Assembly: GCA_028285585.1 (NCBI GenBank)
Contig: JANQOU010000005.1
Coordinates: 1-64,000, forward strand
Source: Acidimicrobiia bacterium
Lineage (GTDB): Bacteria > Actinomycetota > Acidimicrobiia > Spongiisociales > ZC4RG35
DNA length: 64,000 bases
Direction of reading: 5' to 3'
Both the position numbers and the translations under genes were made by a program. Of this stretch, positions 20,456-24,029 are shown in pieces. Under the pieces are notes generated by a model. The model was not told where the DNA came from. It was given only the letters and a program-made list of their open reading frames with translations, and searched no databases. The stretch's first letter is position 1. The number at the start of each line of letters is the position of its first letter.

Positions 20456-21694
20456 ATGAGGCAGTTGTTGGTGTTGGGCGCAGGTACCGCCGGCACCATG
20501 GTTGTCAACAAGCTCAGGTCGCAGCTCGACGCAGACGAGTGGTCGATCATCGTCGTAGACCCAGACCCGGCACATCACTATCAGCCCGGGTACCTGTTCA
20601 TCCCTTTCGGGACTTACCAGCCCGGCCAAGTGACGAAACCCAAGGCGAAGTTCATCCCCAAGGGTGTCGACCTCGTCACCGCCGAAGTCGACCGTGTCGA
20701 GCCATCAGAGAATCGTGTTTTCCTGTCCGACGGATCTGCGATCGGATACGACTTCCTGGTGATTGCCACGGGCACCACGCCGAGACCCGAGGAGACGCCC
20801 GGGATGCTGGGGGAGGAGTGGCAGCGGAGTGTCTTCGACTTCTACACCCTCGACGGCTCTACTGCCCTCGCCGACAAGCTGCGTAGTTGGGAGGGAGGCC
20901 GACTGGTCGTGCACATCTCTGAGATGCCGATCAAGTGCCCGGTCGCTCCTCTCGAGTTTGCGTTCCTCGCCGACTCCCACTTCAAAGAGCGCGAGATGCG
21001 CGACCGCGTCGAGATCACCTATGTGACTCCTCTTGACGCAGCCTTCACCAAGCCGATTGCCGCAGCCCACCTGGGTGGGATGCTGGAGGAGCGGAAGATC
21101 ACGGTGGAGACCGACTTCTACATCGAGTCGGTGGACAACGAGAAGAAGGAGATCGTGTCCTTCGACGAGAGGGCGATCCCGTTCGATCTCCTGGTGACGG
21201 TTCCCGTCAACATGGGCGCTGACTTCATTGGCCGCAGCGGTCTTGGCAACGATCTCAACTATGTCCCGGTTGACCACGAGACGATGCTCTCGAGGGACTG
21301 GGACAACATCTTCGCAGTTGGCGATGCCGCAGACCTACCAACATCCAAAGCCGGGTCCGTCGCTCACTTCGCCATCGAGATCTTCACCGAGAACTTCTTG
21401 CAGCATGTCGACGGCCAGGAGATGACCCACGCTTTCGATGGTCACGCCAACTGCTTCGTCGAGTCCGGAGGGGGCAAGGGCATGCTGATCGACTTCAACT
21501 ACGAGACACAGCCCTTGCCCGGCCGATATCCGATCCCGGGGCTCGGGCCCTTCAAGCTGCTCGAGGAGACCGAGTTGAACCATCTCGGGAAGCTGATGTT
21601 CAAGTGGGTGTACTGGAACGCCTTGTTGCCGGGACGCGACCTGCCACTTCCGGCCCTGATGTCGATGGCCGGCAAAGAGGAAGTCGAGGCCTGA
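20456..21694 (+). CDS. Sulfide:quinone oxidoreductase-like flavoprotein
   Basis: 412 residues, the usual SQR length. An N-terminal dinucleotide fold (LLVLGAGTAGT), the ATGTTPRP motif near 104-111 and a second FAD motif NIFAVGDAADLP (284-295) place it in the two-dinucleotide-binding flavoprotein family. Cys161 (IKCPVAPLEF) and Cys333 (ANCFVESGGGKGMLIDF) match two SQR redox cysteines; the third, near residue 128, is absent. SQR-type enzymes oxidise sulfide at the membrane and pass electrons to quinone. ATG behind AGGAG. It heads a three-gene sulfur cluster with the DsrC-like and DsrE2-like genes. Confidence 0.82.
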   Translation: MRQLLVLGAGTAGTMVVNKLRSQLDADEWSIIVVDPDPAHHYQPGYLFIPFGTYQPGQVTKPKAKFIPKGVDLVTAEVDRVEPSENRVFLSDGSAIGYDFLVIATGTTPRPEETPGMLGEEWQRSVFDFYTLDGSTALADKLRSWEGGRLVVHISEMPIKCPVAPLEFAFLADSHFKEREMRDRVEITYVTPLDAAFTKPIAAAHLGGMLEERKITVETDFYIESVDNEKKEIVSFDERAIPFDLLVTVPVNMGADFIGRSGLGNDLNYVPVDHETMLSRDWDNIFAVGDAADLPTSKAGSVAHFAIEIFTENFLQHVDGQEMTHAFDGHANCFVESGGGKGMLIDFNYETQPLPGRYPIPGLGPFKLLEETELNHLGKLMFKWVYWNALLPGRDLPLPALMSMAGKEEVEA

Positions 21695-21724
21695 GATCAC
21701 AAACGAGAGAAAGGAGCCTGAGCG

Positions 21725-22039
21725 ATGACTCTGGCGACCATCGCCGGCCAGGAGGTCCACGTCGACGACGAGGGCTTCATGACCGAATACGACGAGTGGA
21801 GCGAAGACCTGGCCAGCACATTGGCGGGCAACATCGGTATCGAGTTGACCGACGACCACTGGCAAGCGATTCGCTTCCTGCGCGACGACTACAAGGTCGA
21901 GGGTGTCACGCCGACACTACGAAGAGTGACGAACACCGGAGGGATCCCGACCAAGCAGTTGTTCGTCTTGTTTCCCAAGAAGCCGGCCAAGAAGATGGCC
22001 TACATCGCAGGTCTTCCCAAGCCGGCCGGCTGCGTTTGA
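21725..22039 (+). CDS. DsrC/TusE-like sulfur carrier with a single conserved cysteine
   Basis: 104 residues, the DsrC/TusE length. It has the N-terminal EGFMTEYDEWSEDLA strand and the helix-rich core with TDDHWQAIRFLRDDY. The C-terminal arm ends AYIAGLPKPAGCV, so the penultimate Cys103 is present, but the second arm cysteine of true DsrC (10 residues before) is replaced by Ala. This is the arrangement of TusE and DsrC-like relatives that carry persulfide rather than trisulfide. It sits 30 bases after the SQR-like gene and 15 bases before the DsrE2-like gene. Confidence 0.87.
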   Translation: MTLATIAGQEVHVDDEGFMTEYDEWSEDLASTLAGNIGIELTDDHWQAIRFLRDDYKVEGVTPTLRRVTNTGGIPTKQLFVLFPKKPAKKMAYIAGLPKPAGCV

Positions 22040-22054
22040 TAGGAGGTTTGTGAG

Positions 22055-22561
22055 ATGACGATGACGATGGAAGCCCCGGTGCCCGTCTTCGACGACGAAG
22101 CCACCGACCGCAAGTTGGCAATCATCTGCTCCAAAGGCTCGCTGGACATGGCTTATCCCGGGCTGGTGCTGGCAAACGCGGCCCTGAGTGAGGGAATCGA
22201 GACCCACCTCTTCTTCACGTTCTGGGGCTTTGACATCATCAACAAAGAGACGATGGATCACCTTCAGTTCACACCTGTAGGCAATCCGGCCACGCACATG
22301 CCGCCGATGCTGATGGGATTGCCGGGCATGACCGCTTTCGCCACCCACATGATGAAGAAGCAGATAGAGGGGATCGACATCCCCGATGTCCCGGAGTTCC
22401 TCGAGTTGATCACCGACGCGGGCGGGCATTTGTGGGCCTGCCGTATGAGCGCAGACATGATGCACCTCGAGGAGGAGCAGCTCTACGAGCGGGTCGAGGG
22501 CATCATCAACGCTGCCGACTTCATCGAGCTCTCGGAGGGCGCTCAGACGATCTTCATCTGA
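22055..22561 (+). CDS. DsrE2-like sulfurtransferase
   Basis: 168 residues. It matches the DsrE/DsrF-like DsrE2 pattern: LAIICSKGSLDMAYPGLVLA with Cys25, the FFTFWGFDIINK segment, and a second conserved Cys129 in LWACRMSADMM. DsrE2 proteins take persulfide sulfur and hand it to TusA- or DsrC-type carriers. The usual membrane-spanning variant features are weak here. It is the third gene of the SQR-like/DsrC-like/DsrE2 cluster. Its end overlaps by 8 bases the end of the convergent cyclase gene. Confidence 0.87.
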   Translation: MTMTMEAPVPVFDDEATDRKLAIICSKGSLDMAYPGLVLANAALSEGIETHLFFTFWGFDIINKETMDHLQFTPVGNPATHMPPMLMGLPGMTAFATHMMKKQIEGIDIPDVPEFLELITDAGGHLWACRMSADMMHLEEEQLYERVEGIINAADFIELSEGAQTIFI

Positions 22562-23351
22562 ATCGGTTTCCGCTCTGCAGCCGGTGGACCGTTTGCTGGC
22601 CTGTGAAGCCTTTGAGCTGTCTTGGCGCGCCTTCGTCGAAGGTGAAACCCGTCGCTGCACCTAGCTGGGCGACACGATCCGAGGTGAGGATCTCGCCAGA
22701 GGAGGCTTCCTCACAGATTCGGCTCGCCAGGGTCACCGCGTCCCCGAAGAGGTCCGAACCGCTCTCAACCGGCTCGCCGGCGGCGAGGCCAATTCGGATG
22801 TCCAAGTCCGGTTGGCTTGCGAAGTCGTCCATGACGTCGAGTGCCCAGTCGAGAGCCGGCTGCACATCGGAGAACACGACCATGATGCCGTCGCCGGTGT
22901 GCTTCACCTCACGTCCCTGCGATCGCAGCAGAGAACGCCGGATCGTCAGGTCGTGCTCGGTGAGAAGAACCATGTACTCCGACTGGCCCAGGCGGTCGAG
23001 TAGTTGGGTCGAGCCGACCAGGTCGGTGAATCCGATCACGCGGAAGGCGCTCGTCACCTCGCTGGCATCAGCTGGGTCGTGAACCTCTCCAAGGAACCGG
23101 ACTACGTCCGTCTCGGAGACTTCGATGATCTCGGCGGCGACTTGGCCGTGAGATGCCTCGTGGGCACCGCTCATCGAGTCGGCGTCAGGTGCACGGGCAA
23201 AGCAGAAGACGAGCCCGGTGTCGGCGTCGTGCCAGTAGGAGAGGAACTCGACGCCGTAGTCACCGGCGATCTCGAGGTCGGCCGCGTGATTCTTGGCGGT
23301 TTCCTCCGCTGTCGACCCGGCGGCTTCGTGCCTGTCCAGAAAAAGGGGCAG
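22554..23351 (-). CDS. DUF4242-class III nucleotidyl cyclase fusion
   Basis: An N-terminal DUF4242 domain (PLFLDRHEAAG, YWHDADTGLVFCFARAPDA, HEASHGQVAAEIIEV) is joined to a class III adenylate/guanylate cyclase domain with metal motif FTDLVGSTQLL and the second Asp in HTGDGIMVVF. It should make cAMP or cGMP. The start is unusual: the frame is open back to a GTG at 23450, but those 33 residues cross the operator region and look non-coding. A CTG at 23351 lies five bases after a perfect GAGGAGG and begins exactly at the DUF4242 N-terminus, so it is preferred here. It is divergent from a TetR-SDR pair. Confidence 0.82.
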   Translation of the reverse strand: MPLFLDRHEAAGSTAEETAKNHAADLEIAGDYGVEFLSYWHDADTGLVFCFARAPDADSMSGAHEASHGQVAAEIIEVSETDVVRFLGEVHDPADASEVTSAFRVIGFTDLVGSTQLLDRLGQSEYMVLLTEHDLTIRRSLLRSQGREVKHTGDGIMVVFSDVQPALDWALDVMDDFASQPDLDIRIGLAAGEPVESGSDLFGDAVTLASRICEEASSGEILTSDRVAQLGAATGFTFDEGAPRQLKGFTGQQTVHRLQSGNRFR

Positions 23352-23414
23352 TGCATCCTCCTCGTTCCCTTCTAGAGGATATTGATTTGGTGTCCGGGAC
23401 GATGGGCTTGACGG

Positions 23415-23453
23415 TGAATGAATGTTCATACATAATGAATGAGTGTTCACTCA
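23415..23453. promoter_or_regulatory. Two tandem 18-bp operator-like inverted repeats
   Basis: TGAATGAATGTTCATACA (23415-23432) and TGAATGAGTGTTCACTCA (23436-23453) are related imperfect palindromes 21 bp apart, two helical turns. They lie in the divergent region between the TetR and cyclase genes. The geometry fits a TetR-family dimer pair. The second site covers the ATG at 23439, which argues that TetR translation starts later, at TTG 23463. Confidence 0.65.
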
Positions 23454-23462
23454 GGAGGCGTA

Positions 23463-24029
23463 TTGAGTCGGGACGACCGGCCAAAGGCAATTCGAGCGGC
23501 ATTGCGGGATCTGGTCGCCGAGCGCGGTTTCCATGGCGCGTCTATGTCGGCTGTCGCCGCCCACGCCGGAGTCGCCACAGGCACCGCCTACGTTCACTAC
23601 GAGTCGAAGGACGAACTGGTCTATGCCACCTACCTGGAGATCAAGCAGGAGCTTGGAACGGCAGTACTGGCAGATCTCGATCTAGGCGCAGGCCCCTTCG
23701 AGCGTTACCGCCATCTCTTCATCGAGGCGTACCGATTCCTCGCCGAGCAGCCGGCGAGAGCTGGGTTCCTGACTCAGCTCGAGGAGTCGCCGTTTCACGA
23801 GGAGGCTCGTGCACGTCTCGTTGAGGCCGGGGACCGGCTCGTTGAGGCCTCAGCGGCTTCGGACTTCGCTGCCTTGCTAGTGGATCTTCCCCAAGACGTG
23901 ATCTACGCCATGTCGCTCGGCGTGGCGGTTCGCCTCATCGCTGCTGGAGCACAACTCAAAGAAGAGGAGCTGGATCTCCTCGTCGACTCGACATGGCGGG
24001 CAATCACCCGCCCGGAAACGGAGACGTAA
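23463..24029 (+). CDS. TetR-family transcriptional regulator
   Basis: 188 residues from TTG 23463, which has AGGAGG four bases upstream; ATG 23439 in the same frame lies inside an operator-like palindrome and has no ribosome site. The N-terminal helix-turn-helix has the family pattern (RAALRDLVAERGFHGASMSAVAAHAGVATG, then AYVHYESKDEL). The C-terminal ligand domain is of the common acyl-CoA/lipid-responsive type, which is a tentative reading. It is followed without a gap by an SDR gene and probably represses both itself and the divergent cyclase gene. Confidence 0.88.
   Translation: MSRDDRPKAIRAALRDLVAERGFHGASMSAVAAHAGVATGTAYVHYESKDELVYATYLEIKQELGTAVLADLDLGAGPFERYRHLFIEAYRFLAEQPARAGFLTQLEESPFHEEARARLVEAGDRLVEASAASDFAALLVDLPQDVIYAMSLGVAVRLIAAGAQLKEEELDLLVDSTWRAITRPETET

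Follow-up and report, generated by a model that had tools for sequence, protein, structure and literature searches.

A DUF4242 class III cyclase gene with a probable CTG start codon in an Acidimicrobiia bacterium

Organisation of the locus

The window, a stretch of 64,000 nucleotides from an Acidimicrobiia bacterium, carries on its minus strand an open reading frame of 298 codons (23450-22554). The short form of this frame (22554-23351, minus strand) has a CTG start, encodes 265 amino acids and joins an N-terminal SCO4226-like domain, formerly DUF4242, to a class III nucleotidyl cyclase. Both domains passed the Pfam gathering cut-offs. PF14026 (SCO4226-like) covers 23118-23342, residues 4-78 in the short-form numbering used here (CTG = 1), with 52.8 bits against 28.5 and profile positions 1-76 of 76, and PF00211 (Guanylate_cyc) covers 22578-23036, residues 106-258, with 44.3 bits against 21.9. 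A cluster encoding a pyridine nucleotide-disulphide oxidoreductase, a DsrC-like and a DsrE-like protein (20456-22561, plus strand) is convergent with the cyclase gene, and the last gene of this cluster ends at 22561, giving an overlap of 8 bases with the 3' end of the cyclase gene.

The probable start codon, CTG (23349-23351, minus strand), follows the Shine-Dalgarno sequence GAGGAGG (23357-23363, minus strand) after the 5-nt spacer ATGCA. The original prediction had described a frame without ATG, GTG or TTG near the start of DUF4242, with CTG 23351 five bases past GAGGAGG, and this was borne out: no in-frame ATG, GTG or TTG lies between ATG 23429 and CTG 23351, and after the CTG the frame has its next ATG at residue 60 of the short form. 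The spacer contains a further, out-of-frame ATG (23354-23356, minus strand), on which the prediction was silent. It abuts the Shine-Dalgarno sequence with zero spacing, and opens a frame of only 61 residues whose sequence is unlike the domain.

Upstream of the CTG the frame stays open for 33 codons (23352-23450, minus strand), a stretch that is apparently untranslated, judging from the codon composition and homologue searches described below. Within it are two 14-bp direct repeats with the appearance of operators, TGAATGAATGTTCA (23415-23428) and TGAATGAGTGTTCA (23436-23449), the second 21 bp from the first. They share TGAATGA[A/G]TGTTCA on the plus strand, and no further copies were found in the 2.59-Mb genome. 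GTG 23450 and ATG 23429, the two longer starts that had been predicted to fall within operator sites, do each overlap one of these repeats, by two of their three bases and in identical register in each copy.

A gene encoding a TetR-family regulator (23463-24029, plus strand) is divergent from the cyclase gene. It is preceded by a promoter-like element, TTGACG-17-CATAAT (23408-23436, plus strand), which overlaps both repeats, so that the repeats are most simply explained as operators of the TetR gene. As the start of this gene we infer TTG 23463, which has AGGAGG 4 nt upstream. It is likelier than ATG 23439, since the latter lies inside an operator-like repeat and upstream of the transcription start expected from the TetR promoter. 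Neither a TetR match at E <= 1e-8 nor the exact repeat pattern was found in eight flanks of relatives (L097-L104), which makes TetR control look specific to this locus. Around the gene of one close relative, G017, just two neighbours are shared: an acetyltransferase-like protein (69% identical) at a distance of about 3 kb, and a weak SDR match at 31%. No consensus match to a promoter was found on the minus strand; the sequence TATCCT at 23381-23376 (minus strand) was spotted by eye only.

The start position of the cyclase gene

Alignment of homologues, which had been suggested as a check of the original prediction, set the start at CTG 23351. The homologues were taken from whole genomes, and 66 distinct DUF4242-cyclase genes, the window included, could be compared. 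Six rows with an alignment starting past residue 12 were left out of this count (L019-L023, covering the cyclase part, and L094, aligned from residue 13), as were 12 repeats of the same gene. The codon aligned with CTG 23351 is ATG in 47 and GTG in 17, that is, one of these two in 64 of the 66 genes; the others are the CTG of the window and a single ATA. Five further genes have ATG (3), GTG (1) or TTG (1) at this codon. They comprise a gene from a named actinobacterial assembly (L033), whose contig holds the first 42 residues only, two from Rhizobiaceae plasmids and two from elsewhere in the phylum. In both rhizobial plasmid relatives examined, the annotated start is exactly the residue aligned with CTG 23351. 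TTG starts are nearly absent from these families, being found in one of 71 genes that are fused or presumed to be so, and in none of 61 standalone SCO4226-like genes.

Translation could instead begin at ATG 23429 or GTG 23450, which would add 26 or 33 residues and reduce the Shine-Dalgarno sequence and CTG to mere decoration. The frame is open and holds these ordinary start codons, and an orthologue with ATA at the aligned position (G039) likewise has an in-frame ATG 26 codons upstream. Against this, both codons belong to the operator-like repeats in the same register, and inspection by eye found no good Shine-Dalgarno sequence before either of them. Furthermore, an in-frame stop lies no more than 33 codons upstream in 44 of the 66 genes, in 27 of these only three codons up. 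The extension also differs from the gene in composition, and is non-coding in type: GC at the three codon positions is 48/48/39% in the 33 extension codons, 69/45/77% in the gene body and 73/45/79% over the opening 33 codons of the body. This switch at the CTG indicates that coding-type composition starts there.

A conserved N-terminal extension matching residues 1-33 of the long form was the observation that the original prediction had named as speaking against it. When the window's 33-codon extension was searched against the upstream frames of the 65 remaining genes, the best match had an E-value of 0.12 and nothing was significant. Some alignments made with the long form as query do enter the extension, reaching query residue 6 in G037:C57 and G054:C58 and residues 13-30 in several others; that of G054:C58 crosses two stops within the extension region. 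There is also a precedent in the sigR gene of Streptomyces, where, as reported in PMC5472188, an upstream canonical codon was wrongly annotated as the start in all available streptomycete genomes. We therefore regard initiation at either upstream codon as improbable, and CTG 23351 as very likely the start of the gene.

As a bare DNA pattern, the combination of Shine-Dalgarno sequence and CTG is not clearly beyond chance. GAGGAGG followed after five bases by CTG is found at two places in the window, where 0.39 would be expected, and 6 of 100 shuffles reach this number. The support for the CTG start comes from homology. Once the codon is fixed by the alignment, the chance of a perfect 7-base Shine-Dalgarno sequence within about 6 positions of it is roughly 0.001, an estimate based on 24 occurrences of GAGGAGG in 128 kb of strand. 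Folding of the RNA from -30 to +41 around the start gave no structure beyond that of shuffled sequences (z = +0.89); an ATCCTC upstream of the start could pair with GAGGAT.

An error of assembly or sequencing in an ordinary ATG gene would also give this picture, as CTG differs from ATG by one base. The genome is, however, assembled into 14 contigs, with 96.85% completeness and 0.28% contamination, and error rates make a substitution exactly at a start codon unlikely a priori. We regard such an error as very improbable.

Distribution, integrity and domains of the fusion protein

The original prediction regarded DUF4242 as an unusual input domain for a cyclase, and proposed a survey of such fusions. 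The survey shows that the architecture recurs in the order. Matches at E <= 1e-30 were found in 48 of 138 genomes, the organism's own included; two of these (G043 and G085) match the cyclase half only, which leaves the fusion in 46 of 138. It was also found in nine further genomes in a class sample of 395, and in 2 of 395 other genomes in a phylum sample at E <= 1e-35, so it looks rare in the phylum at large. Among 165 matching plasmid records, 16 carry the fusion at a cover of at least 80%, from Rhizobium, Agrobacterium, Ensifer and Azospirillum. A scan of viral contigs returned no relative, and a single-sequence scan of genome contigs returned one relative, cut at the contig end after 42 residues. 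Literature searches on DUF4242-cyclase fusions and on CTG-started bacterial cyclases gave no paper on either among the matches listed. The gene smc02178 of Sinorhizobium was examined as a possible link, and none was found. This type of cyclase is thus widespread but unstudied as far as the searched literature shows, and what sets the present gene apart is only its weak start. Accordingly, the part of the original prediction that concerns the CTG start stands, with 66 aligned genes, closed upstream frames, codon composition and a gene free of decay behind it, and the part that called the domain combination unusual does not.

A mutated start codon could also mark a gene that has fallen silent, at an early stage of becoming a pseudogene. 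As controls we used 62 standalone SCO4226-like loci from the same order, 44 read by tblastn and 17 by coordinate, with L130 and, outside the 62, four partial matches left out. The 44 loci start with ATG (40), GTG (3) or CTG (1), and the 17 divergent ones read by coordinate all with ATG. The single CTG belongs to L136 (G011:C68), from the same family of genomes, a pseudogene with an in-frame TAG and one invariant His lost; a CTG at the aligned place can thus mark decay. The terminal branch of the window gene is, moreover, the longest of the three in its clade (0.48, with 0.22 and 0.26 for the other two and 0.41 for the next row out). On the other hand, all 265 codons of the window gene are open, the nine invariant residues of the N-terminal domain and the catalytic residues are all kept, and a perfect Shine-Dalgarno sequence is retained at the right distance. 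Its departures from conserved columns are no more than those of its relatives: of 33 columns conserved to at least 98% across the family it matches all, and of the 78 columns that are invariant among the other close genes it departs from 2 (12 close genes, whose own range is 0 to 4). Early decay is therefore very improbable, and by these comparisons the gene is intact, with no sign of decay.

The catalytic positions of the cyclase half were assigned by alignment to Ma1120 (4wp3), and residues were counted over 64 rows, two rows of fewer than 200 residues being left out. D110, K150, D154 and R211 are present in all 64 rows and D200 in 63. We take D110 and D154 to be the metal-binding aspartates, K150 and D200 the substrate-recognising Lys and Asp, and R211 the transition-state Arg. 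Position 207, that of the usual transition-state Asn, holds Asn in 49 of 64 rows and Thr in the window protein and the two relatives closest to it; as Ma1120 has Ala here, the missing Asn is not decisive. The base-recognition positions hold Lys and Asp, which suggests ATP as substrate, and the enzyme is probably an adenylyl cyclase. A single-sequence AlphaFold2 model (mean pLDDT 41) was too poor for a fold search.

In the N-terminal domain, D6, H8, H22, D25, W40, C50, H64, H68 and G69 are invariant in all 64 rows. The homologous SCO4226 of Streptomyces coelicolor binds nickel at surface sites with a Kd of 10 uM, and its authors considered Ni-1 (Asp43, Ser46, His76) the site that might be conserved (PMC4186839). 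The alignment legend of that paper includes a Streptomyces homologue named "gualylate cyclase" (PMC4186839). By our count by hand, the Ni-1 residues correspond to D42, T45 and I76 in the window protein. None of the 64 rows has His at position 76, where all have I, V or L. The protein also misses the equivalog cut-off of the NCBIfam family NF033706 (SCO4226 family nickel-binding protein), with 51.7 bits against 125. The fusion is annotated as "nickel-binding protein" in 4 of the 16 plasmid records, the remaining 12 being without annotation there. Given the missing Ni-1 ligands and the NF033706 score, this name is a label rather than a result, and it is doubtful for the fusions. The nine invariant residues point to a site other than Ni-1, and our guess is that a metal or redox ligand is sensed at the invariant His/Cys/Asp set.

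Near-cognate starts and comparison with known systems

As a positive control we used infC, a gene known to have a near-cognate start, ATT in E. coli and ATC in Streptomyces, and to be regulated by its own product IF3 (PMC5472188). A match was obtained in 30 of 31 genomes of the order (the organism's own and 29 relatives); 28 of these have ATC and 2 have ATT at the aligned start. In 25 of the 30 the codon is preceded by AGGAGG at 5-8 nt, and in the remaining five by a shorter match rich in purines, such as GGAGG or GGGAGG. In the organism's own infC, AGGAGGTAAAGGC is followed by ATC. The approach thus finds near-cognate starts where they are known to exist, and this order does make use of them. 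Gene callers restricted to ATG, GTG and TTG would miss these infC starts (L173-L202).

The second near-cognate start among the fusion genes is that of G039, which is 65% identical to the window protein and has, at the aligned position, ATA six bases past AGGAGG. Its start is less certain than that of the window gene because of the upstream in-frame ATG, which lies 13 nt past the stop of the previous gene. The leader of G039 is almost identical to that of G017, whose start is ATG. In a maximum-likelihood tree the window gene, G017 and G039 form one clade (100/99), in which a sister relation of the window gene to G017 has less support (98/78). This pairing makes separate changes from ATG the simplest reading; G017 may alternatively have returned to ATG.

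The fusion genes differ in what precedes their start. In 43 of the 66, TANNNT lies 5-8 bases before the start without a Shine-Dalgarno sequence, a count for which there is no shuffled control. These genes look leaderless, the pattern being that expected of leaderless mRNAs. The rest have a Shine-Dalgarno sequence only (18), both elements (2) or neither (3). The TANNNT element (for example in L051, L066, L073 and L082) frequently also provides an in-frame TAG, three codons before the start. The CTG and the ATA are in the Shine-Dalgarno group, and both are among the six fusion genes with a full AGGAGG. By simple arithmetic the chance of this is 0.007, for a grouping made with the data already in view. 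That near-cognate starts recur in one clade is suggestive. It is conceivable, if doubtful, that such a start arose there on separate occasions and serves as a translational throttle, with cAMP signalling capacity tied to the IF3 level, in the manner of sigR and ccpN.

CUG pairs weakly at its first base in structures with an initiator tRNA variant, and with the E. coli initiator tRNA its initiation complexes are less stable than those on AUG, GUG or UUG (PMC11497404). In the mechanism that we propose, CTG 23351 would be read by fMet-tRNA and positioned by the strong GAGGAGG. Its poor pairing with the initiator and rejection by IF3 would keep the protein at a low rate of synthesis. Transcription is probably limited as well, through binding of the divergently encoded TetR protein to its two operators. 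The ferredoxin-like N-terminal domain is probably dimeric and would bind a metal or small ligand through the invariant His, Asp and Cys residues, and ligand binding would set the dimer geometry, and hence the activity, of the cyclase halves. Taken as a whole, a soluble class III cyclase with SCO4226/DUF4242 input, started at CTG 23351, made at low output and limited by TetR is a reading that we hold with good, though not full, confidence.

A gene caller restricted to ATG, GTG and TTG would skip the CTG and pick an upstream codon within the operator. The case shows that homology together with a Shine-Dalgarno sequence can recover near-cognate starts. If correct, it brings a signalling enzyme into the small group of genes with such starts, and it is of the known kind, a near-cognate start with a strong Shine-Dalgarno sequence.

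The cyclase half resembles Ma1120 (4wp3) and LipJ (1ybt), both presumably from Mycobacterium, in being a class III domain whose metal Asp, Lys and Asp stand at matching positions, and Ma1120 also is without the usual Asn. The two have another fused domain or none, and the E-values of 7e-23 and 7e-21 indicate family resemblance only. SCO4226 (4oi3/4oi6), matched by sequence over 75 aligned residues, has a homologous N-terminal domain, but is a single-domain protein. Like the cyclase gene, infC has a near-cognate codon past a strong Shine-Dalgarno sequence; it has such a start in all 30 genomes with a match, whereas the CTG of the cyclase gene is found in one genome. A further parallel is sigR, a regulator gene of an actinobacterium in which annotators overlooked the near-cognate start in favour of an upstream canonical codon, and for whose function low output matters (PMC5472188). 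Its GTC start is repressed by IF3, and changing GTC to ATG raised a reporter about fourfold; it differs from the present case in having GTC rather than CTG, in having been tested experimentally and in being followed by an anti-sigma gene (PMC5472188). In Staphylococcus aureus, near-cognate starts with extended Shine-Dalgarno sequences are reported for ccpN and citZ (AUA) and for cvfC1 (AUU), with about 10% of AUG output from AUA and AUU in poor medium and up to 30% from the ccpN AUA in rich medium (PMC13009471). These too are weak starts rescued by a strong Shine-Dalgarno sequence, and the ccpN codon is the ATA of G039; they belong to a Staphylococcus, were detected by Ribo-Ret and reporters, and in ccpN and cvfC1 are conserved across species (PMC13009471), unlike the single CTG described here.
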